Of a stretch of 64,000 nt of DNA, positions 4,261 to 55,202 are shown in pieces. Below the pieces are notes generated by a model. The model made no database searches, had not been told where the DNA came from, and saw only the letters and a program-made list of their open reading frames with translations. Every line of letters starts with the position of its first letter. Position 1 is the stretch's first letter. The stretch comes from Odiellus spinosus (taxonomy: Eukaryota > Arthropoda > Arachnida > Opiliones > Phalangiidae), in NCBI GenBank assembly GCA_963920705.1, contig OY987227.1:28811935-28875934 (forward strand). Reading direction: 5' to 3'. The translations under genes and the position numbers were made by a program.

Positions 4261-5989
4261 CCTGACGAAACGTTCGTTAGATAAAGAAACGCCACCCTCC
4301 TTTGAATACTTCGGGACACTCCCTCGTAAACCTGTACTGTATCGTATTGACGAGAATATCCCTTAATAAAACTTTTTATGATTAATATTACTTAGAGATG
4401 ATAATAATGGACTTATGATTACACGCGAGTAGGGCGACAAGGTCGCGCGTGCTCGGTAGGAAGCCGTCAAGGTCACGCAGTCCGGGGAAGCCGGAAGAAA
4501 ATCCTACAAATACTTTATGATTTACGACGCACCTGCGCGATAAAAGAAGCCGCCGCCGCGCACCCTACAATTTCCCACCCATTCCATCAATGAAAAATTC
4601 CACAGCCAATGAAAGGAGAGTGTAAGGAATTTACTATCGCCGCGCTTAGTAGGAATGCGGAAGTCTTATCTCCCTCCCGCGGAGTACGGCGCGTAATATT
4701 GGACGTCCCCACACCCATTCCGTCAATGAAAATGACTACAGCCAATGAAAGGGGAGTATAATATTAGGAGGGGAACAATTACGTATACAGTAGGCCTATT
4801 ATTTTTTTTAGTCTAAAAAAGGTCGGCGTCCTTTTTAAACGTTAGGCTTAGCTACAAAACAGCATTTTATATTTTTTTTTTACGTTCTCATTCGTAAAAA
4901 TAAAAAAAATCCTATGGTGGTCCGCTTTTTATAAAATCACCAAGGAAACTCTCCCAATGTTAACCGAGTCCAATTTATGTTTACCTTTTTATAAATTGAA
5001 CTCGCTTTGAAATTATTGAATCGTGAATGATTTTAGAGCCCGCAAATTCGCGTTTTAATTAGGTATTTTAAAGTTAATTAACATTAAACTCGACGTTATT
5101 GTTTAAATACGAAAGAAAGGGAGAATGAAATTAGTCAAACCAATTTTTTTTTTAGATTTATCTTTTTGGACCATTTTATTCGTTTTTAATATTTAAAATT
5201 AACTTTTAAACTAATTAAAAATTCAATTTATTAACCAGATTCTAAGAATTGACAGTGAATATATGGTAATCCGGATTCGAGGAGCAGCCGTTCCTGGTAT
5301 ATACTCAAACCCAACTACACTTTCGAAGAAGAGGTCATCAGTGCCTGAAAGAAACGAAAGAGACATTTTTAAAATTTACGTAAAACTCGCGCGTTGAAAT
5401 TTAAGTGTACGCTTTATTTTCCAAATAAAGTCTATAATCTTTGATTAACTAACGATGATAATTGTTTTCCTCTAGAGAATACCTTAAAAAATAGTTATAA
5501 ACAAAATATTGCTTATAACTTGTATGAAAATCCCTGTCAAAAACCAGTCATAATAGAAAATAAATTCCTATTTCGTTATAGGTATCCTATTTGTATTAAG
5601 CTTATTTTGGGCCTTGTTTTTAGCGGACGAACTTCCCTTTGACCTCCCCCCCCCGTCCTTATTTCCCTTAAATCTTTTCCAAAATAGGCCTAATTCAAAA
5701 GCGAATGAAAAATTTACTAATCTGACCTAATTTTTAAACCACATCGTATCACGATTCCAGTAATAATGAATTAACTCGCGATGAACACGAGCCCGTCGCT
5801 AAGGCGAGATCTCCGCGAAACATCCATGTTAAAAGGGATAAACCCCGAGAAAGTTTTACTATAAAATGTCAAATTTAAATTTAGGTATCGTTTTCGTTAG
5901 AACTAATCGACGAATTCGTAGCTTCGTGGTCAGAGTGTACGGTCGCGGATGAACTGATGCCAAGTTCGAAACACACTTTTTCAATAATT
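4261..5989. other. Intergenic DNA with one local duplication
   Basis: No gene is supported. A direct repeat of about 48 bp occurs at about 4575-4622 and 4711-4757 (both contain CACCCATTCC, TCAATGAAAA and AGCCAATGAAAGG). A short GC-richer patch (4420-4720) surrounds it. CCAAT-type boxes in both copies could belong to a promoter, but no downstream gene is identified. Confidence 0.4.
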
Positions 5990-6006
5990 GAATCTTTGTA
6001 TGAGCA

Positions 6007-6900
6007 TGTTTTTATTTTCAACACGTGTTTTTATTTTCAACACGTGTTTTAATTTTCAACACGTGTTTTTATTTTCAACACGTGTTTTTATTTTCAACAC
6101 GTGTTTTTATTTTCAACACGTGTTTTTATTTTCAACACGTGTTTTTATTTTCAACACGTGTTTTTATTTTCAACACGTGTTTTTATTTTCAACGGATGTT
6201 TTTATTTTCAACGGGCGTTTTATTTTCAACGGGCGTTTTATTTTCAACGGGCGTTTTATTTTCAACGGGCGTTTTATTTTCAACGGGCGTTTCATTTTCA
6301 ACGGGCGTTTTATTTTCAACGCGTGTTATATTTTCAACGCGTGTTTTATTTTCAACGCGTGTTTTATTTTCAACGCGTGTTTTTATTTTCAACGCGTGTT
6401 TTTATTTTCAACGCGTGTTTTTATTTTCAACGGGTGTTTTTATTTTCAACGGGCGTTTTATTTTCAACGGGCGTTTTATTTTCAACGGGCGTTTTATTTT
6501 CAACGGGCGTTTTATTTTCAACGGGCGTTTTATTTTCAACGGGCGTTTTATTTTCAACGGGCGTTTTATTTTCAACGGGCGTTTTATTTTCAACGGGCGT
6601 TTTATTTTCAGCGGGCGTTTTATTTTCAACGGGCGTTTTATTTTCAACGGGCGTTTTATTTTCAACGGGCGTTTTATTTTCAACGGGCGTTTTATTTTCA
6701 ACGGGCGTTTTATTTTCAACGGGCGTTTTATTTTCAACGGGCGTTTTATTTTCAACGGGCGTTTTATATTCAACGGGCGTTTTATATTCAACGGGTGTTT
6801 TATTTTCAACGGGTGTTTTATTTTCAACGCTTGTTTTATTTTCAACGCGTGTTTTATTTTCAACGTCTGTTTTATTTTCAACGCGTGTTTTATTTTCAAC
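6007..6900 (+). repeat. Family A array (TTTTATTTTCAACGGGCG)
   Basis: About 50 copies of an 18-19-bp unit. The variable centre moves along the array in blocks: CACGTG copies first (to about 6190), then GGGCG, then GCGTG (6318-6420), then a long homogeneous GGGCG run (6450-6770), and mixed copies at the end. The block structure indicates local amplification. The inverted counterpart is at 19297-19850. Confidence 0.95.
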
Positions 6901-6950
6901 GGGGTACCCCTTGTAAAAAAAATAATTGATTTTTTTTTTTTAACAAGGGG
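6901..6950. repeat. GGGGTACCCC hairpin module 1
   Basis: Begins with the perfect palindrome GGGGTACCCC and then forms an inverted repeat: CCCCTTGTAAAAAAAAT / ATTTTTTTTTTAACAAGGGG-like arms around 'aattg'. It sits exactly at the A-B border. Confidence 0.85.
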
Positions 6951-8438
6951 TGTATTTATTATTTATTTTTATACAGGGGGTGTATTTATTATTTATTTTT
7001 TTACAGGGGGTGTATTTATTATTTTTTTTTTACAGGGGGTGTATTTATTATTTTTTTTACAGGGGGTGTATTTATTATTTATTTTTTTTACAGGGGGTGT
7101 ATTTATTATTTTTTTTTACAGGGGGTGTATTTATTATTATTTTTTTTTACAGGGGGTGTATTTATTATTTATTTTTTTTACAGGGGGTGTATTTATTTTT
7201 TTTACAGGGGGTGTATTTATTTATTTTTTTTACAGGGGGTGTATTTATTTATTTTTTTTACAGGGGGTGTATTTATTATTTTTTTTACAGGGGGTGTATT
7301 TATTATTTATTTTTTTACAGGGGGTGTATTTATTATTTATTTTTTTACAGGGGGTGTATTTATTTTTTTACAGGGGGTGTATTTATTTTTTTACAGGGGG
7401 TGTATTTATTATTTATTTTTTTACATGGGGTGTATTTATTTTTTTACAGGGGGTGTATTTATTATTTATTTTTTACAGGGGTGTATTTATTATTTATTTT
7501 TTTTTACAGGCGTGTATTTATTATTTTTTTTTTACAGGGGTGTATTTTTTATTTATTTTTTTACAGGGGTGTATTTATTATTTATTTTTTTTACAGGGGG
7601 TGTATTTATTATTTATTTTTTTTACAGGGGGTGTATTTATTTTTTTTACAGGGGGTGTATTTATTTTTTTACAGGGGGTGTATTATTATTTTTTTTTTAC
7701 AGGGGGTGTATTTATTATTTTTTTTTACAGGGGGTGTATTTATTATTTAATTTTTTACAGGGGGTGTATTTATTATTTATTTTTTTTACAGACGTGTATT
7801 TATTATTATTTTTTTTACAGGGGTTTATTTTTTATTTATTTTTTTACAGGGGTGTATTTATTAATTATTTTTTTACAGGAGTGTATTTATTATTTATTTT
7901 TTTACAGGGGGTGTATTTATTATTTATTTTTTTTACAGGCGTGTATTTATTATTTTTTTTTTTTTACAGGCGTGTATTTATTATTTTTTTTTTTTTACAG
8001 GGGTGTATTTTTTATTTATTTTTTTACAGGGGTGTATTTATTATTTATTTTTTTACAGGGGTGTATTTATTATTTATTTTTTTACAGGGGGTGTATTTAT
8101 TATTTATTTTTTTTACAGAGGGTGTATTTATTATTTATTTTTTTTACAGGTGTATTTATTTTTTTACAGGGGGTGTATTTATTTTTTTTACAGGGGGTGT
8201 ATTTATTTTTTTACAGGGGTGTATTTATTTTTTTTACAGGGGGTGTATTTTTTATTTATTTTTTTACAGGGGTGTATTTATTATTTTTTTTTTTACAGGG
8301 GTGTATTTATTATTTATTTTTTTACAGGGGGTGTTTTTATTATTTTTTTTACAGAGGGTGTATTTATTATTTTTTTTTTTTTACAGGGGGTGTATTTATC
8401 ATTTATTTTTTTACAGGGGGTGTATTTATCATTTATTC
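6945..8438 (+). repeat. Family B array (TACAGGGGGTGTATTTATTA)
   Basis: About 50 units of 26-33 bp: ACAGGGG(G)TGTATTTATT followed by a variable T-rich run. Copies with one fewer G, with GCGTG, or lacking 'attattt' alternate in a way that suggests unequal exchange. The unit start matches the right edge of the hairpin module (ACAAGGGGTGTATTTATT), so family B probably arose by amplification from that edge. Confidence 0.9.
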
Positions 8439-8558
8439 CCAAGCTCAATTTTCCCAATCTCAATTTTCCCAAGCTATATTTTCCCAAGCTCAATTTTCCC
8501 AAGCTCAATTTTCCCAAGCTCAATTTTCCCAAGCTCAATTTTCCCAAGCTCAATTTTC
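8439..8558 (+). repeat. Family C short array (CCCAAGCTCAATTTT)
   Basis: Eight copies of a 15-bp unit with minor changes (AATCTC, AGCTATA). The reverse-complement relatives (GAGATTCGGAAAATT, GAGCTTGGGAAAATT) form the C' arrays at 14790-17884. Confidence 0.9.
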
Positions 8559-11500
8559 AAAGGGAGTTTTCAAAAAAGGAGAGTTTTATTTTCAAAAACG
8601 GTGAGTTTTATTTTCAAAAACGGGGAGTTTTATTTTCAAAAACGGGAAGTTTTATTTTCAAAAACGGGAAGTTTTATTTTCAAAAACGGGGAGTTTTATT
8701 TTCAAAAAAGGGGAGTTTTATTTTCAAAAAAGGGGAGCGTTATTTTCAAAAAAGGGGAGTTTTATTTTCAAAAAAAGGGGAGTTTTATTTTCAAAAAAAA
8801 AGGGGAGTTTTATTTTCAAAAAAAGGGGAGTTTTATTTTCAAAAAAGGGGGAGTTTTACTTTCAAAAAAAGGGGAGTTTTATTTTCAAAAAAGGGGGAGT
8901 TTTATTTTCAAAAAAGGGGAGTTTTATTTTCAAAAAAAGGGGAGTTTTATTTTCATAAAAAGGGGAGTTTTATTTTCAAAAAAAGGGGAGTTTTATTTTA
9001 AAAAAAAAAGGGGAGTTTTATTTTCAAAAAAAGGGGAGTTTTATTTTCAAAAAAAGGGGAGTTTTATTTTCAAAAAAAGGGGAGTTTTATTTTCAAAAAA
9101 AGGGGAGTTTTATTTTCAAAAAAGGGGAGTTTTATTTTCAAAAAAAGGGGAGTTTTATTTTCAAAAAAAGGGGAGTTTTATTTTCAAAAAAGGGGAGTTT
9201 TATTTTCAAAAAAGGGGAGTTTTATTTTCAAAAAAGGGGGAGTTTTATTTTCAAAAAAGGGGGAGTTTTATTTTCAAAAAGGGGAGTTTTATTTTCAAAA
9301 AAGGGGAGTTTTATTTTCAAAAAAAGGGGAGTTTTATTTTCAAAAAAAGGGGAGTTTTATTTTCAAAAAAAGGGGAGTTTTATTTTCAAAAAAAGGGGAG
9401 TTTTATTTTCAAAAAAAGGGGAGTTTTATTTTCAAAAAAAGGGGAGTTTTATTTTCAAAAAAAGGGGAGTTTTATTTTCAAAAAAAGGGGAGTTTTATTT
9501 TCAAAAAAAGGGGAGTTTTATTTTCAAAAAAAGGGGAGTTTTATTTTCAAAAAAAGGGGAGTTTTATTTTCAAAAAAGGGGAGTTTTATTTTCAAAAAAA
9601 GGGGAGTTTTATTTTCAAAAAAAGGGGAGTTTTATTTTCAAAAAAAGGGGAGTTTTATTTTCAAAAAAAGGGGAGTTTTATTTTCAAAAAAGGGGGAGTT
9701 TTATTTTCAAAAAAGGGGGAGTTTTATTTTCAAAAAAGTGGAGTTTTATTTTCAAAAAAAGGGGAGTTTTATTTTCAAAAAAGGGGAGTTTTATTTTCAA
9801 AAAAGGGGAGTTTTATTTTCAAAAAAAGGAGAGTTTTATTTTCAAAAAAAGGGGAGTTTTATTTTCAAAAAAAGGAGAGTTTTATTTTCAAAAAAAGGGG
9901 AGTTTTATTTTCAAAAAAAGGGGAGTTTTATTTTCAAAAAAAGGGGAGTTTTATTTTCAAAAAAAGGGGAGTTTTATTTTCAAAAAAAGGGGAGTTTTAT
10001 TTTCAAAAAAAGGGGAGTTTTATTTTCAAAAAAGGGGGAGTTTTATTTTCAAAAAAGGGGGAGTTTTATTTTCAAAAAAGTGGAGTTTTATTTTCAAAAA
10101 AAGGGGAGTTTTATTTTCAAAAAAGGGGAGTTTTATTTTCAAAAAAGGGGAGTTTTATTTTCAAAAAAAGGAGAGTTTTATTTTCAAAAAAAGGGGAGTT
10201 TTATTTTCAAAAAAAGGGGAGTTTTATTTTCAAAAAAAGGGGAGTTTTATTTTCAAAAAAAGGGGAGTTTTATTTTCAAAAAAAGGGGAGTTTTATTTTC
10301 AAAAAAAGGGGAGTTTTATTTTCAAAAAAGGGGAGTTTTATTTTCAAAAAAGGGGAGTTTTATTTTCAAAAAAAGGAGAGTTTTATTTTCAAAAAAAGGG
10401 GAGTTTTATTTTCAAAAAAAGGGGAGTTTTATTTTCAAAAAAAGGGGAGTTTTATTTTCAAAAAAAAGGGAGTTTTATTTTCAAAAAAAGGGGAGTTTTA
10501 TTTTCAAAAAAAGGGGAGTTTTATTTTCAAAAAAGGGGAGTTTTATTTTCAAAAAAGGGGAGTTTTATTTTCAAAAAAAGGAGTTTTATTTTCAAAAAAA
10601 GGGGAGTTTTATTTTCAAAAAAAGGGGAGTTTTATTTTCAAAAAAAGGGGAGTTTTATTTTCAAAAAAAGGGGAGTTTTATTTTCAAAAAAAAGGGAGTT
10701 TTATTTTCAAAAAAAGGGGAGTTTTATTTTCAAAAAAGGGGAGTTTTATTTTCAAAAAAAGGGGAGTTTTATTTTCAAAAAAAGGGGAGTTTTATTTTCA
10801 AAAAAAGGGGAGTTTTATTTTCAAAAAAAGGGGAGTTTTATTTTCAAAAAAAGGGGAGTTTTATTTTCAAAAAAAGGGGAGTTTTATTTTCAAAAAAGGG
10901 GGAGTTTTATTTTCAAAAAAGGGGGAGTTTTATTTTCAAAAAAGGGGGAGTTTTATTTTCAAAAAAGTGGAGTTTTATTTTCAAAAAAAGGGGAGTTTTA
11001 TTTTCAAAAAAGGGGAGTTTTATTTTCAAAAAAGGGGAGTTTTATTTTCAAAAAAAAAGAGTTTTATTTTCAAAAAAAGGGGAGTTTTATTTTCAAAAAA
11101 AGGGGAGTTTTATTTTCAAAAAAAGGGGAGTTTTATTTTCAAAAAAAGGGGAGTTTTATTTTCAAAAAAAGGGGAGTTTTATTTTCAAAAAAGGGGAGTT
11201 TTATTTTCAAAAAAGGGGAGTTTTATTTTCAATAAAAGGAGAGTTTTATTTTCAAAAAAAGGGGAGTTTTATTTTCAAAAAAGGGGAGTTTTTTTTTCAA
11301 AAAAGTGGGAGTTTTATTTTCAAAAAAGGGGAGTTTTATTTTCAAAAAAGGGGGAGTTTTATTTTCAAAAAAGGGGGAGTTTTATTTTCAAAAAAGGGGA
11401 GTTTTCTTTTCAAAAAAAGGAGAGTTTTATTTTCAAAAAAGGGGAGTTTTATTTTCAAAAAAGGGGAGTTTTATTTTCAAAAAAATGGGAGTTTTATTTT

Positions 11501-11885
11501 CAAAAAAAGGGGAGTTTTATTTTCAAAAAAAGGGGAGTTTTATTTTCAAAAAAAGGGGAGTTTTATTTTCAAAAAAAGGGGAGTTTTATTTTCAAAAAAA
11601 GGGGAGTTTTATTTTCAAAAAAGGGGAGTTTTATTTTCAAAAAAAGGGGAGTTTTATTTTCAAAAAAAGGGGAGTTTTATTTTCAAAAAAAGGGGAGTTT
11701 TATTTTCAAAAAAAGGGGAGTTTTATTTTCAAAAAAAGGGGAGTTTTATTTTCAAAAAAAGGGGAGTTTTATTTTCAAAAAAAGGGGAGTTTTATTTTCA
11801 AAAAAAGGTGAGTTTTATTTTCAAAAAAAGGTGAGTTTTATTTTCAAAAAAGGGGAGTTTTATTTTCAAAAAAGGGGAGTTTTTT
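8559..11885 (+). repeat. Family D array (GGGGAGTTTTATTTTCAAAAA)
   Basis: About 145 copies of a 22-23-bp unit GGGGAGTTTTATTTTC followed by 5-9 A. Early copies carry AACGG (8590-8700), intermediate in form between families A and D. Higher-order groups of units (for example the GTGGAG variant at about 9736, 10080 and 10965) recur at several hundred base pairs. Confidence 0.95.
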
Positions 11886-11983
11886 TACAGGGGGTGTATT
11901 TATTATTTTTTTTTTACAGGGGGTGTATTTATTATTTATTTTTTTTTACAGGGGGTGTATTTATCATTCTTTAAAAAATTAAA
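11886..11983 (+). repeat. Family B, short block before inversion
   Basis: Three B units; the last has 'tttatcattc' as at the end of the large B array, then the sequence turns over. Confidence 0.85.
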
Positions 11984-12180
11984 AATACACCCCCTGTAAA
12001 AAAAAAATTAAAAATACACCCCCTGTAAAAAATAAATTAAAAATACACACCCTGTAAAAATACACCCCCTGTAAAAAATAAAAAAATACACCACCTGTAA
12101 AAAAATAAATTAAAAATACACCCCCTGTAAAAAAAAATAAATAATAAATACACCCCCTGTAAAAAAATAAATAATAAAAA
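11984..12180 (-). repeat. Family B', inverted block after the strand switch
   Basis: Reverse-complement B units (ACACCCCCTGTAAAAAA), directly abutting the forward block. The junction near 11984-11990 is the symmetry centre of the complex. Several copies end AATTAAAAATACACC, a variant absent on the left side. Confidence 0.9.
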
Positions 12181-14737
12181 AACTCCCCTTTTTTGAAAAT
12201 AAAACTCCCCTTTTTTTGAAAATAAAACTCCCCTTTTTTTGAAAATAAAACTCCCCTTTTTTTGAAAATAAAACTCCCCTTTTTTTGAAAATAAAACTCC
12301 CCTTTTTTTGAAAATAAAACTCCCCTTTTTTGAAAATAAAACTCCCCTTTTTTGAAAATAAAACTCCCCTTTTTTGAAAATAAAACTCCCCCTTTCTTGA
12401 AAATAAAACTCCCCTTTTTTTGAAAATAAAACTCACCTTTTTTTGAAAATAAAACTCCCCTTTTTTTGAAAATAAAACTCCCCCTTTTTTGAAAATAAAA
12501 CTCCCCCTTTTTTGAAAATAAAACTCCCCCTTTTTTGAAAATAAAACTCCCCCTTTTTTGAAAATAAAACTCCCCCTTTTTTGAAAATAAAACTCCCCTT
12601 TTTTTGAAAATAAAACTCCCCTTTTTTTGAAAATAAAACTCCCCTTTTTTTGAAAATAAAACTCCCCTTTTTTTGAAAGTAAAACTCCCCCTTTTTTGAA
12701 AATAAAACTCCCCCTTTTTTGAAAATAAAACTCCCCTTTTTTTGAAAATAAAACTCCCCATTTTTTGAAAATAAAACTCCCCTTTTTTTTGAAAATAAAA
12801 CTCCCCTTTTTTTGAAAATAAAACTCCCCTTTTTTGAAAATAAAACTCCCCTTTTTTGAAAATAAAACTCCCCTTTTTTGAAAATAAAACTCCCCCTTTC
12901 TTGAAAATAAAACTCCCCTTTTTTTGAAAATAAAACTCCCCTTTTTTTGAAAATAAAACTCCCCCTTTTTTGAAAATAAAACTCTCCCTTTTTTGAAAAT
13001 AAAACTCTCCCTTTTTTGAAAATAAAACTCTCCCTTTTTTGAAAATAAAACTCCCCCTTTTTTGAAAATAAAACTCCCCCTTTTTTGAAAATAAAACTCC
13101 CCCTTTTTTGAAAATAAAACTCCCCTTTTTTTGAAAATAAAACTCCCCTTTTTTTGAAAATAAAACTCCCCTTTTTTTGAAAATAAAACTCCCCTTTTTT
13201 TGAAAGTAAAACTCCCCCTTTTTTGAAAATAAAACTCCCCCTTTTTTGAAAATAAAACTCCCCTTTTTTTGAAAAAAAAACTCCCCTTTTTTTGAAAATA
13301 AAACTCCCCTTTTTTTTAAAATAAAACTCCCCTTTTTTTGGAAATAAAACTCCCCTTTTTTTGAAAATAAAACTCCCCTTTTTTTGAAAATAAAACTCCC
13401 CTTTTTTTGAAAATAAAACTCCCCCTTTTTGAAAATAAAACTCCCCTTTTTTTGAAAATAAAACTCCCCTTTTTTTGAAAATAAAACTCCCCTTTTTTTG
13501 AAAGTAAAACTCCCCCTTTTTTGAAAGTAAAACTCCCCCTTTTTTGAAAATAAAACTCCCCCTTTTTTGAAAATAAAACTCCCCCTTTTTTGAAAATAAA
13601 ACTCCCCCTTTTTTGAAAATAAAACTCCCCTTTTTTTGAAAATAAAACTCCCCTTTTTTTGAAAATAAAACTCCCCTTTTTTTGAAAATAAAACTCCCCT
13701 TTTTTTGAAAATAAAACTCCCCTTTTTTTGAAAATAAAACTCCCCTTTTTTGAAAATAAAACTCCCCTTTTTTGAAAATAAAACTCCTCCTTTCTTGAAA
13801 ATAAAACTCCCCTTTTTTTGAAAATTAAACTCCCCTTTTTTTGAAAATTAAACTCCCCTTTTTTTGAAAATAAAACTCCCCTTTTTTTGAAAATAAAACT
13901 CCCCTTTTTTTGAAAATAAAACTCCCCTTTTTTTGAAAATAAAACTCCCCTTTTTTTGAAAATAAAACTCCCCCTTTTTTGAAAATAAAACTCCCCTTTT
14001 TTTGAAAATAAAACTCCCCTTTTTTTGAAAATAAAACTCCCCTTTTTTTGAAAATAAAACTCCCCTTTTTTTGAAAATAAAACTCCCCTTTTTTGAAAAT
14101 AAAACTCCCCTTTTTTTGAAAGTAAAACTCCCCCTTTTTTGAAAATAAAACTCCCCCTTTTTTGAAAATAAAACTCCCCCTTTTTTTGAAAATAAAACTC
14201 CCCTTTTTTTGAAAATAAAACTCCCCTTTATTGAAAATAAAACTCCCCTTTATTGAAAATAAAACTCCCCTTTATTGAAAATAAAACTCCCCTTTTTTGA
14301 AAATAAAACTCCCCTTTTTTGAAAATAAAACTCCCCTTTTTTGAAAATAAAACTCCCCTTTTTTGAAAATAAAACTCCCCTTTTTTGAAAATAAAACTCC
14401 CCTTTTTTTGAAAGTAAAACTCCCCCTTTTTTGAAAATAAAACTCCCCTTTTTTGAAAATAAAACTCCCCTTTTTTGAAAATAAAACTCCCCTTTTTTTT
14501 AAAGTAAAACTCCCCCTTTTTTGAAAATAAAACTCCCCTTTTTTTGAAAATAAAACTCCCCTTTTTTGAAAATAAAACTCCCCTTTTTTTTAAAAATAAA
14601 ACTCCCCTTTTTTGAAAATAAAACTCCCCTTTTTTTAAAATAAAACTCCTTTTGAAAATAAAACTCCCTTTGAAAATAAAACACCCTTTGAAAATAAAAC
14701 ACGCTTTGAAAATAAAACTCCCTTTGAAAATAAAAAA
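12181..14737 (-). repeat. Family D' array (reverse-complement D)
   Basis: About 110 copies of CTCCCC-T(6-7)-GAAAATAAAA. Variants: GAAAGTAAAA recurs periodically (12675, 13203, 13501, 14120, 14409), 'tttattg' copies at 14225-14280, and degenerate copies with CTTTGAAAATAAAAC at the right edge (14650-14737), resembling family A'. Confidence 0.95.
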
Positions 14738-14788
14738 GGGGTACCCCTTGTAAAAAATAATAAGTGATTTTTTTACAAGGGGTACCCC
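14738..14788. repeat. GGGGTACCCC hairpin module 2
   Basis: Two GGGGTACCCC palindromes (14738-14747 and 14779-14788) flank a TTGTAAAAAA…TTTTTTACAA inverted pair with a short loop. It marks the D'-C' border. Confidence 0.85.
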
Positions 14789-17700
14789 TTTGAGATTTTG
14801 AAAATTGAGATTTTTGAAATTTGGAAAATTGAGATTTGGAAAATTGAGATTCGGAAAATTGAGATTCGGATAATTGAGCTTGGGAAAATTGAGCTTGGGA
14901 AAATTGAGATTTTTGAAATTTGGAAAATTGAGATTCGGAAAATTGAGCTTGGGAAAATTGAGATTCGGAAAATTGAGATTCGGAAAATTGAGATTCGGAA
15001 AATTGAGATTCGGAAAATTGAGATTCGGAAAATTGAGATTCGGAAAATTGAGATTTGTAAAATTGAGATTTGTAAAATTGAGATTTAAAAAATAAATGAT
15101 AAATACACCCTCTGTAAAAAAAATAAATGATAAATACACCACCTGTAAAAAAAATAAATGATAAATACACCCCCTGTAAAAAAAAAATAAATGATAAATA
15201 CACCCCCTGTAAAAAATAAATAAATAATAAATACACCCCCTGTAAAAAAAATAAATAATAAATACACCCCCTGTAAAAAAAATAAATAATAAATACACCC
15301 CCTGTAAAAAAAAAAAAATAATAATAATAAATACACCCCCTGTAAAAAAAATTAATAATAAATACACCCCCTGGCAAATTGAGATTGGGAAAATCTAGAT
15401 TGGGAAAATTGAGATTCGGAAAATTGAGATTCGGATAATTGAGATTCGGAAAATTGAGCTTGGGAAAATTGAGATTTTTGAAATTTGGAAAATTGAGATT
15501 TGGAAAATTGAGATTCGGAAAATTGAGATTCGGAAAATTGAGATTCGGAAAATTGAGATTCGGAAAATTGAGATTCGGAAAATTGAGATTCGGAAAATTG
15601 AGATTTGTAAAATTGAGATTTGTAAAATTGAGATTTAAAAAATAAATGATAAATACACCCTCTGTAAAAAAATAAATGATAAATACACCACCTGTAAAAA
15701 AAATAAATGATAAATACACCCCCTGTAAAAAAAAATAAATGATAAATACACCCCCTGTAAAAAATAAATAAATAATAAATACACCCCCTGTAAAAAAAAA
15801 TAAATAATAAATACACCCCCTGTAAAAAAAATAAATAATAAATACACCCCCTGTAAAAAAAAAAAATAATAATAATAAATACACCCCCTGTAAAAAAAAT
15901 TAATAATAAATACACCCCCTGGGAAAATTGAGATTGGGAAAATCTAGATTGGGAAAATTGAGATTCGGAAAATTGAGATTCGGATAATTGAGATTCGGAA
16001 AATTGAGCTTGGGAAAATTGAGATTTTTGAAATTTGGAAAATTGAGATTTGGAAAATTGAGATTCGGAAAATTGAGATTCGGAAAATTGAGCTTGGGAAA
16101 ATTGAGATTCGGAAAATTGAGATTCGGAAAATTGAGATTCGGAAAATTGAGATTCGGAAAATTGAGATTCGGAAAATTGAGATTCGGAAAATTGAGATTC
16201 GGAAAATTGAGATTCGGAAAATTGAGATTTGGAAAATTGAGATTTAAAAAATAAATGATAAATACACCCCCTGTTAAAAAAAAATAAATGATAAATACAC
16301 CCCCTGTAAAAAAAATAAATGATAAATACACCCCCTGTAAAAAAAATAAATGATAAATACACCCCCTGTAAAAAAAAACAAATGATAAATACACCCCCTG
16401 TAAAAAAAATAAATGATAAATACACCCCCTGTAAAAAAATAAATGATAAATACACCCCCTGTAAAAAAAATAAATGATAAATACACCCCCTGTAAAAAAA
16501 AATAAATGATAAATACACCCCCGGAAAAAAAAAATGATAAATACACCCCCTGTAAAAAAATGAATAATAAATACACCCCCTGTAAAAATAAATAAATAAT
16601 AAATACACCCCCTGTAAAAAAAATAAATAATAAATACACCCCCTGTAAAAAAAATAAATAATAAATACACCCCCTGTAAAAAATAAATAAATAATAAATA
16701 CACCCCCTGTAAAAAAAATAAATAATAAATACACCCTCTGTAAAAAAAATTAATAATAAATACACCCCCTGGGAAAATTGAGATTGGGAAAATTGAGATT
16801 GGGAAAATTGAGATTGGGAAAATTGAGATTGGGAAAATTGAGATTGGGAAAATTGAGATTGGGAAAATTGAGATTGGGAAAATTGAGATTGGGAAAATCT
16901 AGATTGGGAAAATCTAGATTGGGAAAATCTAGATTGGGAAAATTGAGATTCGGAAAATTGAGATTCGGATAATTGAGATTCGGAAAATTGAGCTTGGGAA
17001 AATTGAGATTTTTGAAATTTGGAAAATTGAGATTCGGAAAATTGAGATTCGGAAAATTGAGATTCGGAAAATTGAGATTCGGAAAATTGAGATTCGGAAA
17101 ATTGAGATTTGGAAAATTGAGATTTAAAAAATAAATGATAAATACACCCTCTGTAAAAAAATAAATAATAAATACACCCCCTGTAAAAAAAATAAATGAT
17201 AAATACACCCCCTGTAAAAAAAAAAATAATAAATACACCCCCTGTAAAAAAAATAATAAATACACCCCCTGTAAAAAAAAATAAATAATAAATACACCCC
17301 CTGTAAAAAAAATACACCCCCTGTAAAAAAAATAAATAATAAATACACCCCCTGTAAAAAAAATTAATAATAAATACACCCCTTGTAAAAAAAATTAATA
17401 ATAAATACACCCCCTGTAAAAAAAATGAATAATAAATACACCCCCTGTAAAAAAAATAAATGATAAATACACCCCCTGTAAAAAAAAATAAATGATAAAT
17501 ACACCCCCTGTAAAAAAAAATAAATAATAAATACACCCCCTGTAAAAAAAAATAAATAATAAATACACCCCCTGTAAAAAAAATAAATAATAAATACACC
17601 CCCTGTAAAAAAAAAATAATAAATACACCCCCTGGGAAAATTGAGATTGGGAAAATTGAGATTGGGAAAATCTAGATTGGGAAAATTGAGATTCGGAAAA

Positions 17701-17884
17701 TTGAGATTCGGATAATTGAGATTCGGAAAATTGAGCTTGGGAAAATTGAGATTTTTGAAATTTGGAAAATTGAGATTCGGAAAATTGAGATTCGGAAAAT
17801 TGAGATTCGGAAAATTGAGATTCGGAAAATTGAGATTCGGAAAATTGAGATTCGGAAAATTGAGATTTGGAAAATTGAGATTTA
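14789..17884 (-). repeat. Higher-order repeat of alternating C' and B' blocks
   Basis: C' blocks (15-bp GAGATTCGGAAAATT and relatives) at 14789-15088, 15373-15640, 15922-16246, 16772-17126 and 17634-17884 alternate with B' blocks (about 29-bp AATGATAAATACACCCCCTG units). Each C' block carries the same internal landmarks (a TTTTTGAAATTTGG interruption, a 'ggataattgag' copy and 'atctag' copies), so the C'+B' pair itself has been duplicated as a unit of about 550-860 bp. Confidence 0.9.
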
Positions 17885-19246
17885 AAAAATAAATGATAAA
17901 TACACCCTCTGTAAAAAAATAAATGATAAATACACCCCCTGTAAAAAAAAATAAATGATAAATACACCCCCTGTAAAAAAAATAAATGATAAATACACCC
18001 CCTGTAAAAAAAAATAAATGATAAATACACCCCCTGTAAAAAAAATAAATGATAAATACACCCCCTGTAAAAAAAAATAAATGATAAATACACCCCCTGT
18101 AAAAAAAAATAAATAATAAATACACCCCCTGAAAAAAAAAATAAATAATAAATACACCCCCTGTAAAAAAAATAAATAATAAATACACCCCCTGTAAAAA
18201 AAATAAATAATAAATACACCCCCTGTAAAAAAAATAAATAATAAATACACCCCCTGTAAAAAAAATTAATAATAAATACACCCCTTGTAAAAAAAATTAA
18301 TAATAAATACACCCCCTGTAAAAAAAAAAAAAGATAAATACACCCCCTGTAAAAAAAATAAATGATAAATACACCCCCTGTAAAAAAAATAATTAATAAA
18401 TACACCCCCTGTAAAAAAAATAAATAATAAATACACCCCCTGTAAAAAAAATTAATAATAAATACACCCCCTGTAAAAAAAAAAGATAAATACACCCCCT
18501 GTAAAAAAAATAAATGATAAATACACCCCCTGTAAAAAAAAATAAATGATAAATACACCCTCTGTAAAAAAAATAAATGATAAATACACCCCCTGTAAAA
18601 AAATAAATGATAAATACACCCCCTGTAAAAAAAAAATAATAAATACACCCCCTGTAAAAAAAAAATAAATACACCCCCTGTAAAAAAAATAAATAAAAAA
18701 TACACCCCCTGTGAAAAAAATAATAAATACACCCCCTGTAAAAAAATAAATAATAAATACACCCCCAGTAAAAAAAAAAAATAATAAATACACCCCCAGT
18801 AAAAAAAAATAAATAATAAATACACACCCTGTAAAAAAAAAAAATAAATACACCCCTGTATAAAAATAAATAATAAATACACCCCTGTAAAAAAATAAAT
18901 AATAAATACACCCCCTGTAAAAAAATAAATAATAAATACACCCCCTGAAAAAAAAAATAATAAATACACCCCCTGTAAAAAAAAAATAATAAATACACCC
19001 CTGTAAAAAAATAAATAATAAATACACCCCCTGTTAAAAAAAAATATATACACCCCCTGTAAAAAAAATAAATACATCCCCTGTAAAAAAAATAATAAAT
19101 ACCCACCCTGTAAAAAAATAAATAATAAATACACACCCTGTAAAAAATAAATAAGAAATACACCCCCTGTAAAAAAAAATAAATACACCCCTGTAAAAAA
19201 ATAAATAATAAATACACCCCCTGTATAAAAATAAATAATAAATACA
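17885..19246 (-). repeat. Long family B' array
   Basis: About 48 reverse-complement B units. Those at 17885-18610 contain AATGATAAATAC; those farther right contain AATAATAAATAC and become irregular (ACACACCCTG, CCACCCTG, CCCAGTAAA), mirroring the irregular copies near the outer end of the left B array. Confidence 0.9.
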
Positions 19247-19296
19247 CCCCTTGTTAAAAAAAAAAAATCAATTATTTTTTTTACAAGGGGTACCCC
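19247..19296. repeat. GGGGTACCCC hairpin module 3
   Basis: Inverted equivalent of module 1: CACCCCTTGTTAAAA…ATCAATTATTTTTTTTACAAGGGG followed by TACCCC, at the B'-A' border. Confidence 0.85.
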
Positions 19297-19850
19297 GTTG
19301 AAAATAAAACACGCGTTGAAAATAAAACAGACGTTGAAAAGAAAACACCCGTTGAAAAGAAAACACCCGTTGAAAAGAAAACACCCGTTGAAAAGAAAAC
19401 ACCCGTTGAAAATAAAACACCCGTTGAAAATAAAACACCCGTTGAAAATAAAACACCCGTTGAAAATAAAACACCCGTTGAAAATAAAACACCCGTTGAA
19501 AATAAAACACCCGTTGAAAATAAAACACCCGTTGAAAATAAAACACCCGTTGAAAATAAAACACCCGTTGAAAATAAAACACCCGTTGAAAATAAAACAC
19601 CCGTTGAAAATAAAACACCCGTTGAAAATAAAACACCCGTTGAAAATAAAACACGCGTTAAAAATAAAACACGCGTTAAAAATAAATCACGAGTTGAAAA
19701 TAAAACACCCGTTGAAAATAAATCACGCGATGAAAATAAAACAAACGTTGAAAATAAAACACGCGTTAAAAATAAAACACGAGTAGAAAATAAAACACGA
19801 GTTGAAAATAAAACACGAGTTGAAAATAAACCACTCGTTGAAAAAAAAAA
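19297..19850 (-). repeat. Family A' array (GTTGAAAATAAAACACCC)
   Basis: About 30 copies of the reverse complement of family A, mostly 18 bp with centre ACCCG; ACGCG, ACGAG and ACAAACG variants lie at the edges. The AAAGAAAACACCC sub-type (19330-19400) is local to this arm. Confidence 0.95.
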
Positions 19851-20212
19851 TTTTTTTTTTTTTTTTTTTACAAGGGGTACCCCTTGTAAAAAAAAAAAAA
19901 GATAAATACACCCCCTGTAAAAAAATAATTGATAAATACACCCCTGTAAAAAAAAAAAATAATAAATACACCCCTGAAAAAAAAAAAAATAATAAATACA
20001 CCCCTTGTAAAAAAAATAAATAATAAATACACCCCTTGTAAAAAATAAATAATAAATACACCCCCTATAAAAAATAAATAATAAATACACCCCTGTAAAA
20101 AAAAATAATAATAAATACACCCCTTTTAAAAAAAAATAAATAATAAATTCACCCTCTGTTAAGGGGTACCCCTTGTAAAAAAAATAATTGATTTTTTTTT
20201 TTACAAGGGACA
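19851..20212. repeat. Terminal B' block between hairpin modules 4 and 5
   Basis: Module 4 (about 19851-19898) is a near-perfect palindrome centred on GGGGTACCCC with TTTTTTACAA/TTGTAAAAAA arms. A degenerate B' run follows (19895-20158), then module 5 (20161-20210) with the same CCCCTTGTAAAA…TTTTACAAGGG hairpin that defines module 1. Confidence 0.85.
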
Positions 20213-20934
20213 TAATAATTACGACACTAATAAAATATGCGGAATCGCGTGTGAAAAATAGCCCTCCCCCCTTCCCTTCTTTCAACCGTTGTTCTATATT
20301 TTGAAACACATAATCGCTTCCTTTTCCAGAAAATTAAAACATTCGCGAGAAGTGGCGAGCGACTCGAAATAATAATAAAAATTAAAGGAGAAGTCGCAAA
20401 TTGAACGTTTTGTTTTCTTTATCGAGAGAGTTTCGAAATGAGATCGTGTTTTTAAGAAGCTACTAGGTAGACTCTTATAACGAGTTAGTTTTAAACGATT
20501 TCGATCAAAGCTTATTAAAATAAAATGAGACAACCAAAGCCCGAATTTGCCGCGACTATAACTTCAATTCCGAATCTAATAACGTACGTTTAAATCCAGG
20601 AATGAAAATATATCAGTTTAGCGAGAAATAAATATAAATCTAAAAATTGAAATTGTTAAGGTGTGGGTTTCTTTAACAGGTATGGAAAGGTTTCTCTTAC
20701 GCTATCGAGGTCAGTCAAGATATAAGCGAGCGGTTAACATTGTACGTAACATCTACGAAAGGGGATTTTTTTTTTAATAGTCGCTCGACCTTCTTGGAAG
20801 TTGGGATAAAAATTAAAAAGGGTCTGTGACACCGCTACACAGCCTCGTTTCAAGGATATCACGCGAAAAAACATTAAAGGGAACGTAAATGAAATGGAGT
20901 GCGGTAGAAAAATTAATTAGGACTCGCTTTCATT
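20213..20934. other. Intergenic, no feature recognised
   Basis: Unique-looking AT-rich DNA between the satellite complex and a tandem repeat; no supported coding frame. Confidence 0.4.
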
Positions 20935-21366
20935 GAGCCCAATTGACAACGTCGATTGAGCCCAATTGCGAAGGTCGATTAAGCCCAATTGCAAAGGTCG
21001 ATTAAGCCCAATTGCAAAGGTCGATTAAGCCCAATTGTAAAGGTCGATTAAGCCCAATTGCAAAGGTCGATTAAGCCCAATTGCGAAGGTCGATTAAGCC
21101 CAATTGTAAAGGTCGATTAAGCCCAATTGTAAAGGTCGATTAAGCCCAATTGCAAAGGTCGATTAAGCCCAATTGTAAAGGTCGATTAAGCCCAATTGCA
21201 AAGGTCGATTAAGCCCAATTGCAAAGGTCGATTAAGCCCAATTGCGAAGGTCGATTAAGCCCAATTGCGAAGGTCGATTAAGCCCAATTGCGAAGGTCGA
21301 TTAAGCCCAATTGCGAAGGTCGATTAAGCCCAATTGTAAAGGTCGATTAAGCCCAATTGCAAAGGT
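20935..21366 (+). repeat. 23-bp tandem repeat (GGTCGATTAAGCCCAATTGC)
   Basis: About 19 head-to-tail copies of a 23-bp unit, GGTCGATTAAGCCCAATTG plus CAAA, CGAA or TAAA. The first two copies have GAGCCC. It is bounded by unique DNA, with no spacers and no palindromic repeat, so it is a minisatellite. Confidence 0.95.
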
Positions 21367-22135
21367 CGTTAGTGAGCCGATAAAATCTTGTCTTCTTAGG
21401 CAGATATATTCTAACAACGCGCGAGAACCCAAAAAGGTGGAGTCTCATTTCCCATAAAAATTCGAGACTGGACAAAACGAAGGGGTTTAATACGCGAGAA
21501 TACCGGCTATATTTCCGGCTCTTGGATCTGAGGCCCTCTAAATTGTCCTACACTGAAGTAATCTCTTCGATACGTATACGTACCGCGGCCACAGCGCCAT
21601 CACCTACGCCCCTTAAGTCAAACTAAAAAATAGCCGGGAATTTTAGATCTCGAGCGAAAAACTCTGGCCATAGATAAGTTAATATTTTTCGTCAGTTCAC
21701 GGCTCCCTTTAACTTATTTTGTATTTTGAAAAATACGTTAACCTTGATATAATCGACATTCTTAGGAAGGTTGGTTTTGATAATAACACCTTGTCATTGT
21801 ACTAATCTTTTTGGGCGTGACAGCTTCGAGAATAGAGCAGGTCGAGCGCGTTTATTGGTGGAAATTTGACAAAAGTTACATCATAGCTACGGATGAAGGC
21901 GAGAGTAGTGACGTCAAGTCACGTGGTAAATTCTTTATCACGGAACCCGTTTTGGGTTACGTCACTCCACGCTAAGCAGATGGGCTTGAAAAGCTAATGA
22001 AGTACGAATGTAACGTAAAAACATTAATTAGGGCTGGCCTCTAAGAAGAGATAAGCGATACTTTCAATCGTATTCTTGGAAGAACCTTCCGCGGAAGTAT
22101 TGCCTTTTAAAGGGCGAATAAATCGTGGAAGGATA
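21367..22135. other. Intergenic, no gene seen
   Basis: Contains a slightly GC-richer stretch (21400-21620) with no frame I can support. Confidence 0.35.
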
Positions 22136-34702: not shown

Positions 34703-37700
34703 ATGCTTGAAAATAAAACATTTCGAGTTGGATTTATTACGGTACGTTACCTTAAACCTTTTTTATTTTTAATTAAATCGAGCGTATTTAAATAAAAAAC
34801 TTTTTCAGTTTCAGTACGCGGCTCTAAATCCAACCGAAAGAGAGACGTTTATTTTTTTGATTAACGAATACCAAAGAATATTCAAAATGAAGTAAAAAAT
34901 ATATCCAAGTTTATGACATTATTTTAAAATAAGGCTGTCATTAATAATTACCGGTACTGGTCAAAGTATTTGAACAATAATGAAGCGTCCATCTGGTAAG
35001 GTTTCGTCGATACCACGAATTTTAACTATACTTAATTTATTTTACAAAGTTTTGATAATCTATCTTCGTTATTAATTAAATAAATTAATAATAAATAAAT
35101 TCATTAGTATAATAAATAAATAAAAAAATTTGCCTTGGGAAAATTAGCGGTGGTCTAGTTCCCATCCGTTTTTTAAAGTTCGGGTCTTTAATATTCGTAA
35201 GGGGGATAAACATTAAGCGTGGATACTGATTTATTAGTCACACGCGGAAAATATTATATACGCGTTTTAAGTCTCGGTTTAATCAGAGGTTTACGTAGCC
35301 ATAATCTCAGTCGATAAACCCAAAGTTGATTGTAATTAAATCTGATTAATTACGCTTCGTCTGAAGAGGGTATTAGGCTCGGTTTATTTCTTCAACCATT
35401 TCTAGGTTCATTCGATCGAATTACAGTGACAGCCTCGCTTTAACAATAATCATCAGATTAAATTAATTATTTTCCATTTCGTTAGAACCGAAGTGGTAGA
35501 ATTCAATATTAATTTGGAGAATTCCGAAGATTATCTATCAACACTCTTAGTATCTGCCGTAAGTCATGTCTGCAAAAACGATAGGTAGTTGTAAATAATT
35601 AAACAAATATTAAACTAGAAAAAAATATTAAATTTGGCTTAGATGGATTCGTAGAGATCGGCTCAATTTCTTCGAGTTAAAGGTTCAGCGACCAATCAAA
35701 GTTATTGGACGTTTAAAGGAGATCTCGCCTTAACGAATGGCCTTTGATGATTGGTCCCTGACCCTTAAACGCGAAGAAATTCAGCTGATCTCCGTGAATC
35801 CGACTAAGTTTTAAAATTGCTAGTGTAATATTTGTTTGTAAATTTATTTACCGTTGGATTGGGTTTATTTAAACGATAAGGAATCATTAAAAAAACAATC
35901 CTTATTAGGTTTCATTCTCCCTTTAAGATGAATTATTAAGAATATTTAATATTTGTAATATTTTAAGAATTTAGCCGTTCTTTTAAAAGCACACGATATA
36001 TCATCATTTTCGTTCGACGGGGTTTCGGTTGAATGTGGTTACAGCCACGCCGCAATTACTTCAAAGATAAGAATTATATCTGGAGTACCATCGCGAGAAA
36101 CGGTCACTTCAATAAATGTCTTTGACTGGACAGTAAGATTAACTTTAATCTTTACTAAGATATCTGGCGTTGTTTATTTTAACGTAATAAAGTTAATTTG
36201 AATTTGAAGTTCCTGGTCGTTTTCCTCGCGAGTTGGATGTCAATTTGTTTGACGATGACTTTGCTTAGCGTTTATGGTCCAGGAACTCGAGGGAATAGAG
36301 AGAAAACCGGGTCATTTTGGAAAGAATTGGGTTATTTCAGTTGGTCTACGTGGAACCTCTTCTTTCTCGAACGTAAATACCGAATATAAGTTTATTTATA
36401 ATAAAAGCAACGAAGTTACTTAAACATTTACGGAGATAGAAGTAAAGAATGGAATTGTTTCTCCCCGCCTATCATTAAATCGCTTCTAATCTAACGGACG
36501 TTAGGAATTAATAAAATCTTACAATTGAAATTGTTTTGAACAGCTTTCCGTCGCGTTTCGTCAATGACAAGAGTCAAACTTCTAACGTTACTTTGGATGC
36601 TGGCTACGTTGTTTCTAACGATTTTTTTCACATCCTACACTAAATATAATTACGCGGAAGTTAATTACTTAAGAATTGATAGCGTCAAATCGATATTAGA
36701 AAGAAATAACGGAAAAATTTTGGTTCCAATCAATTCAATCGAAGCGGAATTTATACGAAGAAAGGTATTTTTACGGGAAACTTGGAATCAGCGTGTCAAA
36801 AAACCTATTCCACAATTTTTCCCCAATTTTTAGACCCGTTTTTGGTGTTTAAATTAATTTGTGGGTAAAATTTGAATAAAAGTTAATATAAAAACCGACC
36901 AATCATATTATTTCAACCTTGAACAGCGCTTGTTTTTGACGCCGAAGACCTTGGCCATCAAACAATGGCTTATTCTTTTAACGTTAATACGGTAAAAGCG
37001 TCGTTGAAGGCTGAAATAATACGATTGGTTCGATTTTATTTTTACCAAACTTCAGAAATTAATAATTCAAACTTTTCTTTCTTGTTTAGTGTTTTTCTAT
37101 ATTAATCACTTATTAATTGCCCCCCTAATTAAGTAATTTCGTTAATCGATTCCAGGCAACTCGGGACAACGACTCGGATTACGTTTTACTTAATGAAATT
37201 GTTACGAAGGACTATTTGAAACGTCCAACTCCACTCGATTTATTCTTCGGTGACAAGCTAACTAATCAAATTTTGATCGAAGATTATTCCGTGATAATTA
37301 ACGAGGTCTCGTTCGAAGGATATATCCGAGAGAAATCGAAACAACATTTTTTCGACGTTTTTCAAAATATGGGCAAATATTATTTCTCGCAACCCTTACA
37401 AGAATCTATGAAAGTTTTTCCCATCTCAAAAAAGAAAAGTTACGCCGAAAACTTGGCGAAATTTAACAAATTGTAAGTAAGACAGACGTAATACTAAAAA
37501 AATATACCAACAAATTAAGAAAAACCTATTAGAAAATTTCAAATTATCATGAAAAAAATCAAATACAACGCGACATGTTAGTTTAGCCTGGCTTATGTTA
37601 GCTTAGGTCGGGTTTCGTTAGCTTAGGTCGGGTTTCGTTAGCTTAGGTCGGGTTTCGTTAGCTTAGGTCGGGTTTCGTTAGCTTAGGTCGGGTTTCGTTA

Positions 37701-38673: not shown

Positions 38674-41160
38674 ATGAATCAGACTTTTAGAATTGGTGTA
38701 ATTGAAGTAAGAATATTTTGAAAATTAATTTAAACTTGATTTAAAAATAATTTTTTTTAGGAAAGTTATTTCATTAAATCGTACAGAGAAAGTATCGATT
38801 TTTTGATAAAATCGTACGAAAATGTATTCAAAATTAGGTGAATAATGTATTCAATTATTAATATTAATCGTAATTTAATTAATTAATAATTTATAGGGTG
38901 GAATTAATATTCGTGAGCTATCAGGAAAGTTTGGCCAACACCACCGCTTACATTATATCAAATTTGGCGAGTCTATAAAAGCAATTTACTTATTTAAATT
39001 GTAAGTTTTAATTTGGTTTTAAATTATAATTTTAGAATTTGTCAGCTTTGATGAAACCCTTCGAATTATCCGAGTTTTCATTCGATGGCGATGGAGCCGA
39101 GTGTGGCTACAGTCAAATTATCTAATCAACATCTATTGTGATAATTTCCGGGCCACCCAAAGTAGAAACGGTTTCAACCGTCTCTAACACATTCAAATAC
39201 GTCCTGAATGATTGGAAAGTTAGTAAACTATCCTAACTAAATTATTGGCAAACTAAAAGTTAAAAATGACAAGTACAACTCGAATATTTTGCGTATTTAA
39301 TTATCCTAGCTTCAATTAATTGGAAGCGTGTGCTTTTTCTTGGCATCAATAACGTTGGCGTTACTTAGCGTAGGTGTCAGACCAAAACCTACAAGTTTCA
39401 GATCGAAGATGTCAGCATTTTGGAAGGAATTAGAGTATTACTCGTGGTCAACCTCGATACTATTCTTCTACGAACGTAAATATAACAAGAACCTTTTGAA
39501 TTTTCATCGTATCGTAGAGAATGAATAAGCTTTTTTATTCTTAGTTAGAATTAAAATTATTAATTACGAACAGACTATATTTAATTTTAAATCAAAGTAA
39601 AATTAACGAACGACTGAAGAAGATTAGGTTAAGTTCCAAGGTTAAGAAAAATCTATACTTCGTTCCAATCTTAAAAAAATTGGTAATTTTCCCTAGAAAT
39701 AGGTTCTAGTTAACGAGAGTTTTTTAACCCCTTTCAAGGTTGATGAAAATGTATTAAATTTTTTGTTTTCACTAAAGCGTGTCGTCGCGTTTCAACCGTA
39801 ACTCGAGTGAATCTTTTAAGTCTGATCGTGATGGTCTCTACGACATTCTTATCAATTCATTATTCGTCGACTCTCAAGTCGGATTTAGCGGAAGAAAAAT
39901 ACCAAAAAATGGACTCTGTCAAATCTCTCGTCAACGAGGGAAACAAGAAAATTATGATTCCTGACAGATTCGTCGAACACCAATACGTTAACAGAAAGGT
40001 TAACCGCTTTAACTAGAACTTTGCCCACACGTAATAGGATCTAATTGTCCATCTTGTAATTAAGCGAGTAATTGCCCATCGCGGTAAATAAAGATCATAT
40101 ACTAATGGTACAATATGTTCTTAAGATATCCTAGAGTAATTTCAAAATTGTAATTATCCAACAGAGTAAAGTAATTAATCGTATAGTTACTAGTAATTGT
40201 TCAATATATAGGTTAGATATATAGTGGTCCTAATTACACGTTGGGCAATTACTGTAGGACATCTGAATTACATATTGGACAATTAAAATGTCGTACAGTA
40301 ATTATCTATAACATTAGATATGTCCTACAGTAATTATCTATAACATTAGATATGTCCTACAGTAATTGTCAAATTATTGTAGTTAAGATGTCCTACAGTA
40401 ATCATCTATAACATTTTAGATATGTCCTACAGTAATTATCTACAACATTATAGATATGTCCTACAGTAATTATCTACAGCATTATAGATATGTCCCACAG
40501 TAATTGCCCGATACTTAATTGTCTCCCTGATTTCCGTTTCAGGTCTTGGACGCCGACCAAGATTACGTCAAGCTACAAGAGCTAATTTCATCGGACAATA
40601 ACAACTTCGTGACATTCGAGGATATCTTATCTCACGACAAGTTTTTCAACAAAATCACCGAAGAAGATTATTCTCTCATTATCAGCGATTTTAGTTACAA
40701 CGCTTTTCTCTACGAACATTTCATCGAAGACGGCAAATTTCGTTTGATCGATAATATGGGCAAATTCTACTATTCAAAACCATTTGGGGAAACGCTAAAA
40801 GCTTGCCCAGTCTCCAAACACAGCAGTCAAGTCAAAAACGTACAAAATTTTAATAAATTGTAAGTTACCCGAGGCTGATAATCTAAATTAACTATTTAAA
40901 TTAAGCGCGCTTGTATAATTAGTTTAAACGCTTCATTTTTTAGGATCTTAAGAGGACTAGAAACCGAGACTATTTTCGGAAATGAAAGAATCTTCAAATT
41001 TCATAATGAAATTCTAAAATGGAAGGAACCGGTTAAATCAGATTTCAGAATGAAATTGAAAGCTTTGCCGGGTTTATTTAAATTATATTTAACGGGCAAC
41101 GTATTCGCTACTATTACACTTTTGATTGAATTTGGATTACGCAAAAGATTCAGCCGATAA
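38674..41160 (+). pseudogene. Ionotropic-receptor-like gene, copy 2 (in-frame stop, GC donor)
   Basis: Exons align one-for-one with copies 3 and 4: 38674-38706, 38761-38837, 38897-38966, 39036-39218, 39310-39475, 39778-39998, 40543-40859, 40944-41160 (428 codons with stop). Two lesions: TAA at 39123-39125 in exon 4, where copies 3 and 4 have an Arg codon, and a GC instead of GT donor at 38967 (ttg|gcgagt against ttg|gtaagt in copy 3). Exons 5-8 remain open and well preserved, including M3 (RRVSTVTRVNLLSLIVMVST), S2 (EEDYSLII, NMGKFYYSKP) and M4 (FKLYLTGNVFATITLLIEF). It is therefore either a recent pseudogene, a stop read through as in some insect 'pseudo-pseudogene' receptors, or a sequencing error. 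AATAAATAAA lies 86 bp after the stop. Confidence 0.7.
40291..40506 (+). repeat. About 31-bp tandem repeat in intron 6 of copy 2
   Basis: Six to seven units of ATGTCCTACAGTAATTATCT plus ATAACATTAGAT, with small differences. The preceding 100 bp contain looser versions of 'cagtaattg'. Confidence 0.85.
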
Positions 41161-54944: not shown

Positions 54945-55202
54945 TCTTATTAATAATTCGTATTAAATAATTAATAATTCGTATTAAATAATTAATTCGT
55001 ATTAAATAATTAATAATTAATTCGTATTAAATAATTAATTCGTATTAAATAATTAATTCGTATTAAATAATTAATTCGTATTAAATAATTAATTCGTATT
55101 AAATAATTAATTCGTATTAAATAATTAATTCGTATTAAATAATTAATTCGTATTAAATAATTAATTCGTATTAAATAATTAATAATTCGTATTAAATAAT
55201 TA
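54945..55202 (+). repeat. 18-bp AT satellite (AATTAATTCGTATTAAAT)
   Basis: About 13 copies, with 'aataattcg' variants at both edges. Confidence 0.9.

Follow-up and report, generated by a model that had tools for sequence, protein, structure and literature searches.

How does a cluster of short tandem repeats come to carry the same repeat families twice, in mirror order and on opposite strands? The question is raised by a repeat complex of ~14 kb in the genome of the harvestman Odiellus spinosus. It lies in the window analysed here, that is, the whole stretch of 64,000 nucleotides (nt) at positions 28,811,935-28,875,934 of contig OY987227.1 (29.37 Mb, C3 in the following), part of an assembly of 443 Mb in 286 contigs. 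Some 0.54 Mb separate the complex from the contig end, and it is set in unique sequence, as 42-nt pieces of its flanks (5910-5951 and 20210-20251) each have one match in the genome when up to 3 mismatches are allowed. We read it as one among the many mirrored complexes of this genome, a large and imperfect inverted duplication that involved composite minisatellite arrays and would have originated by recurrent fold-back or template switching combined with local spread of its core; a probability of roughly 0.55 is given to this reading.

Mirrored arms and their common ancestry

According to Tandem Repeats Finder (TRF), four repeat families follow each other in the order A-B-C-D-B to the left of ~11,975 and in the order B'-D'-(C'B')n-A' to the right of it, the latter as reverse complements. 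This confirms the mirrored order on opposite strands that had been proposed, around about 11,985, in a sequence-only reading of this stretch; TRF puts the centre at about 11,975. The sign of the GC skew flips at the same place, from +0.57 (11500-11999) to -0.68 (12000-12499). The complex is composed of the following features:

6010-6903, plus strand: array A, 49 copies of an 18-mer (TTTTATTTTCAA plus 6 nt), outermost on the left (TRF, monomer list)
6857-7009, plus strand: A/B junction block of 153 nt with inverted identity to 19188-19340; holds the hairpin motif 6905-6949
6925-8437, plus strand: array B, 53 copies of a ~30-mer (TACAGGGGGTGTATTTATTATTTATTTTTT), alpha subtype (TRF)
8436-8558, plus strand: array C, 8 copies of a 15-mer (TRF)
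8567-11883, plus strand: array D, 146 copies of a 23-mer (TRF)
11880-11972, plus strand: inner B, 3 alpha units (TRF)
11949-11996, no strand: centre of symmetry, with the last '>' B core, an AT-rich spacer and the first '<' B core
11973-12188, minus strand: inner B', beta-subtype units from 11977, then alpha units (TRF)
12179-14668, minus strand: array D', 109 copies, 5-G variant in common with D (TRF)
14669-14813, minus strand: A-like copies and the hairpin motif 14742-14781, without left counterpart
14814-19272, minus strand: C'B' higher-order repeat in which C' (five blocks) and B' alternate (TRF)
19188-19340, minus strand: B'/A' junction block, mirror of 6857-7009
19294-19849, minus strand: array A', 31 copies (TRF, monomer list)
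19879-20209, minus strand: extra B' block (19879-20159) and 43-nt hairpin motif (20167-20209) beyond A', without left counterpart

The two arms resemble each other well beyond the order of their families. At the A/B junction 153 nt are identical in inverted orientation (6857-7009 and 19188-19340), and it is outward from this block, within the arrays on both of its sides, that differences between the arms set in. In 100 shuffles a 41-nt piece of the junction was never matched, as against twice in the window. The B/C and D/B junctions are also similar between the arms, both by eye and by gapped alignment, and the arms are connected by 1,714 exact inverted matches of at least 45 nt (counted without shuffle control), the longest of which, 213 nt, lies in D. 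The D monomer spectra of the left and the right arm have a cosine of 0.96, and most other D arrays are less similar to either of them. One D monomer type, the 5-G variant, was found in 12 monomers of the left and 16 of the right arm. Among 24 locus sets it occurs 37 times in the window and once at C3:28.05 Mb, and it is absent from the other 22, six of which have any D marker. Because an identical A/B junction and a near-private D variant are found in both arms, these share ancestry: judged by sequence, they are homologous and of one shared origin.

Each arm has its own history as well. The copy numbers (left/right, TRF) are 49/31 for A and 146/109 for D, and C'B' pairs have been multiplied in the right arm only, where the blocks are 91-99% (C') and 97-100% (B') identical among themselves in aligned columns. 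Both the unequal copy numbers and the one-sided amplification of C'/B' pairs had been noticed from the letters alone, and TRF and the block identities bear them out. On the left C directly abuts D, whereas on the right A-like copies and the hairpin motif at 14742-14781 separate D' from C'. Of the D monomer types, 20 are present only in the left arm, 15 only in the right arm and five in both, and the common order of the D arms does not rise above that of 40 shuffles (best match 10.3; shuffle mean 7.8, maximum 11.3). With types that are mostly arm-specific and without shared order, the arms have therefore grown separately; ordered exchange between the D arms was considered and rejected on the same shuffle result. 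These sequence comparisons support an inverted duplication after which each arm was amplified on its own. The sequence-only reading had put forward such a scenario with a single duplication; the junction, the D variant and the arm-specific variants sustain the duplication and the growth, while "single" finds no support, as the core recurs elsewhere.

The mirror is incomplete at its tip. Four beta-B units at 11977-12108 form the innermost B' of the right arm, and the pattern used for them gave no match on the left, so that the mirror does not extend to the very centre. A spacer plus one-sided beta-B, forming an unmirrored spacer at the tip, is present in the window and in the other C3 cores viewed, and all five C3 cores viewed have an asymmetric tip, with alpha B opposite beta B.

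Recurrence of the core and polarity of the turnarounds

Whole-genome counts from pattern searches are lower bounds throughout, because one genome listing missed a known exact match in the right arm. With up to 3 mismatches the sequence of the window's centre was found at seven places, all of them in the interval 27.05-28.82 Mb of C3 (less than 1.8 Mb), five in one orientation and two in the other. Four of the seven are located inside a ~2-kb higher-order repeat at C3:27.05 Mb (L033/L034). The core, D>B> facing <B<D, is present in the window and at C3:28.05 Mb. At C3:28.41 Mb there is one full core, the centre of which is missing one half, together with a second core with one-sided D, and at C3:27.05 Mb the core takes an extended form with few D units. 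On another contig, C2:2.37 and C2:0.85 Mb harbor cores of D-B facing B'-D' that have different spacers and lack beta units. The complex can thus not be regarded as unique, as its core plan recurs on C3 and C2, and the view of its architecture as unusual is not supported, given a core at several loci, a centre present seven times on C3 and close '><' turnarounds at 192 or more places. Repeated fold-back copying, rather than a one-off event, is the favoured explanation of these recurring mirror blocks, and the C3 copies suggest that a ready-made core has also been copied locally within the C3 lineage.

The close B turnarounds, defined by a gap of 8-38 nt, number genome-wide at least 192 for '><' and at least 20 for '<>'. 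Fifty of the 192 '><' places (C1 to part of C4) were clustered; merging of overlaps of less than 60 nt left 45 centres at 35 loci, which fall in 32 spacer clusters, and this suggests that there have been many turnarounds. At the level of arrays, T/G-strand monomers lie mainly on the left and those of the opposite strand mainly on the right at 11 of 12 loci (two-sided binomial p 0.006; area under the curve, AUC, of 0.70 to 1.00 for the eleven). The count is based on loci with at least five B markers per strand that had not been picked for '<>' centres; L033-L037 (from the '<>' list), C2:33.44 and single-orientation loci were left out. Loci L013-L016 had been fetched with the mirrored order already visible in the list, and L018-L032 had been picked by the number and exactness of their matches, with strands also visible in the list. 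Without the window and two order-picked loci the result is 8 of 9. This polarity bias is the part that a specialist might not expect.

Some further repeats were seen at these loci. Outer arrays at L010, L012, L027, L030 and L031 have locus-specific monomers, and in several of these monomers TTTTCAA or TTTTATTTTCAA is followed by a short tail that varies, as though new monomers arose beside old ones. Between 5434070 and 5514325 on C7 (G000) the hairpin motif, with one mismatch, occurs every 1-8 kb over ~80 kb, in one orientation among the matches listed. Two hairpin-B matches that seemed isolated proved to sit in arrays.

The remainder of the window contains other repeats and a few gene-like frames. 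A 23-mer array of other sequence (ATTAAGCCCAATTGCAAAGGTCG; 20932-21368, 19 copies, 95%) starts 0.7 kb to the right of the complex, and two further arrays, of 21-mers, are located at 625-1361 (36 copies) and 55011-55877 (42 copies), all reported by TRF. An open frame at 2378-2731, at a distance of 3.3 kb from the complex, matches the Pfam family Fuseless, and another frame has a weak AMP-binding match under the Pfam family cut-off. These matches hint at an arthropod, Fuseless being a family known from arthropods. Three frames (37129-37476, 40531-40863 and 43810-44178) are alike by eye and may represent exons from a family of tandem genes; they have no Pfam match. Rfam and transfer RNA (tRNA) scans of the window gave no hits. 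A literature search with three repeat strings returned as its sole match, for one string only, a paper that, as far as its available text goes, deals with an unrelated Plasmodium kinase.

Possible origins of the mirror

The preferred reading could work as follows. The mirrors would be created when, in the course of replication or of break repair, the DNA folds back or the template is switched: the T/G-rich strand would snap back with its 3' end at an AT-rich linker and copy its own array, and an unmirrored loop would stay at the tip, here the spacer and the beta-B units. Slippage, unequal exchange and segmental duplication would then alter each arm independently, and one core may have spread locally (C3 27.05-28.82 Mb) via ectopic exchange or reinsertion. 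The polarity may arise because folding mostly starts from the T/G-rich strand's 3' end, or it may come from fork direction. A wider proposal, namely that inverted self-duplication happens again and again in dispersed minisatellites, mostly with the T/G-rich strand toward the centre, is put forward tentatively. If true, strand asymmetry, of the folding 3' end or of fork direction, would set satellite architecture genome-wide, outside large blocks.

Several observations weigh against a recurrent, polarity-biased fold-back. The fold-back event itself is inferred, and both the '><' bias and the recurrent core would also follow from the descent of one foldback transposon. The ratio of 192 to 20 covers close turnarounds only, whereas '>' and '<' must alternate along a region, and the 192 include overlapping places. 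From C1 to part of C4, the comparison stands at 45 '><' against nine '<>' centres, four of these nine lying inside the C3:27.05 Mb repeat. The polarity is reversed at C7:3.04 (AUC 0.31), one of the 12 mixed loci, and at C2:33.44, which had been excluded for having only two '+' markers. Of four loci picked for '<>' centres, two are reversed (at least one of their strands has few markers), one is not and one could not be scored. Alpha B flanks the centre on both sides at C2:2.37 and C2:0.85 Mb, so that an unmirrored beta loop is not general. As for the kinship of the two arms, the D block at C3:28.05 Mb (L013_R1) is as close to the left arm (cosine 0.97) as the right arm is (0.96), and an order match of 10.3 between the D arms cannot separate early duplication from later exchange.

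The main competitor is a foldback-type DNA transposon (FB, Tetris or Galileo-like) with satellite-built inverted repeats, of which the window would hold one inserted, over-grown copy. We regard this as possible, if rather doubtful. It would account for inverted arms that consist of tandem repeats, for the same centre at seven places in both orientations, for the unique flanks in the window, for the biased turnaround polarity and for the A-like TTTTATTTTCAA monomers that are outermost at several ends; moreover, the repeats internal to the terminal inverted repeats of Tetris are described, in the available text of that study, as having turned into satellite arrays (PMC4079207). On the other hand, no target-site duplication (TSD) above chance was found at seven complexes and nine end pairs, the longest shared flank word of 4-6 nt being matched by 25-97% of random flank pairs. 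Two of these complexes had alternative boundaries set by eye, and the test is blind to a 2-bp TA, several ends being TACCCCTTGT/ACAAGGGGTA. The termini in the window are unlike (A on the left, B' and a hairpin on the right), and the ends at other loci are mixed. A single element sits poorly with 45 listed centres in 32 spacer clusters and with finding the window's centre on a single contig. Viewing by eye, with no family search, the longest three frames of each of 21 gap or flank stretches revealed nothing that resembles a transposase. A frame of 201 amino acids at L026 appears retrotransposon-like by eye, a separate observation. With no TSD above chance, unlike ends in the window and no transposase recognised by eye, identity with a foldback transposon is not claimed, though the complex may in part behave like one.

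Three other explanations have less in their favour. Selection might keep the arms mirrored for the sake of a hairpin, a cruciform, a barrier to forks or chromatin of a special kind. The mirrored plan and the polarity do recur, and a similar proposal appears in the available text on Tribolium (PMC13081366), while the arms drift in length and variants, and such a functional dyad is improbable. Still less probable is strand-asymmetric growth around a zone of replication start or termination, in which arrays in the favoured orientation would expand and yield opposite arms without one inverted duplication. It fits the genome-wide polarity and leaves unexplained why the A/B junction is identical and a near-private variant shared. 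Inverted arms that meet at one point are also a classic form of an assembly or hairpin-read artefact. In this case, however, copy numbers (49/31, 146/109) and private variants are not the same in the two arms, nor are their ends, C'B' is duplicated in one arm alone, and cores of the same plan exist at other loci. Hairpin-read chimerism is unlikely because of the differing copy numbers and private variants, and an artefact of either kind is the least probable of the origins considered.

Relation to known systems

This genome speaks to the open question of the birth, spread and inversion of satellites. It offers many mirrored complexes, a countable polarity bias and near-identical centres, for which fold-back, transposon and replication-direction models make different predictions that can be checked. 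The comparisons below are limited to the available text of the sources. In human fold-back inverted duplications an unmirrored spacer likewise marks the loop, next to short inverted homology (PMC3907307). Those cases involve large chromosome segments, terminal deletions being among their features, and their spacers span 766-70,466 bp (PMC3907307), whereas the spacers reported here measure tens of nt to about 130 nt and lie inside satellites. The inverted arms of Tetris in Drosophila virilis are also made of internal tandem repeats, some of which have grown into satellite arrays (PMC4079207); Tetris has terminal domains and 8-10-bp TSDs (PMC4079207), neither of which was found here.

The closest known pattern is that of the macro-dyad symmetries of Tribolium madens and its relatives, which are multi-megabase in size, likely (peri)centromeric and described as documented exclusively within Tribolium (PMC13081366). 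In both systems arrays switch orientation into two kb-scale inverted subarrays, and the intermingling of two related satellites in Tribolium is a further likeness (PMC13081366). Inversion sites are conserved in Tribolium (PMC13081366); here there are seven near-identical centres on C3, yet 32 clusters among 45 centres. The major and minor satellites of Tribolium derive from a ~110-bp element (PMC13081366), compared with units of 15-31 bp in a complex of ~14 kb with single-copy flanks, which, unlike the Tribolium arrays, does not fill a multi-megabase region. The four array types in mirrored order and the polarity bias of the turnarounds set the present complex apart from Tribolium (PMC13081366), and it would carry mirror-arranged satellites beyond the megabase arrays of that genus.

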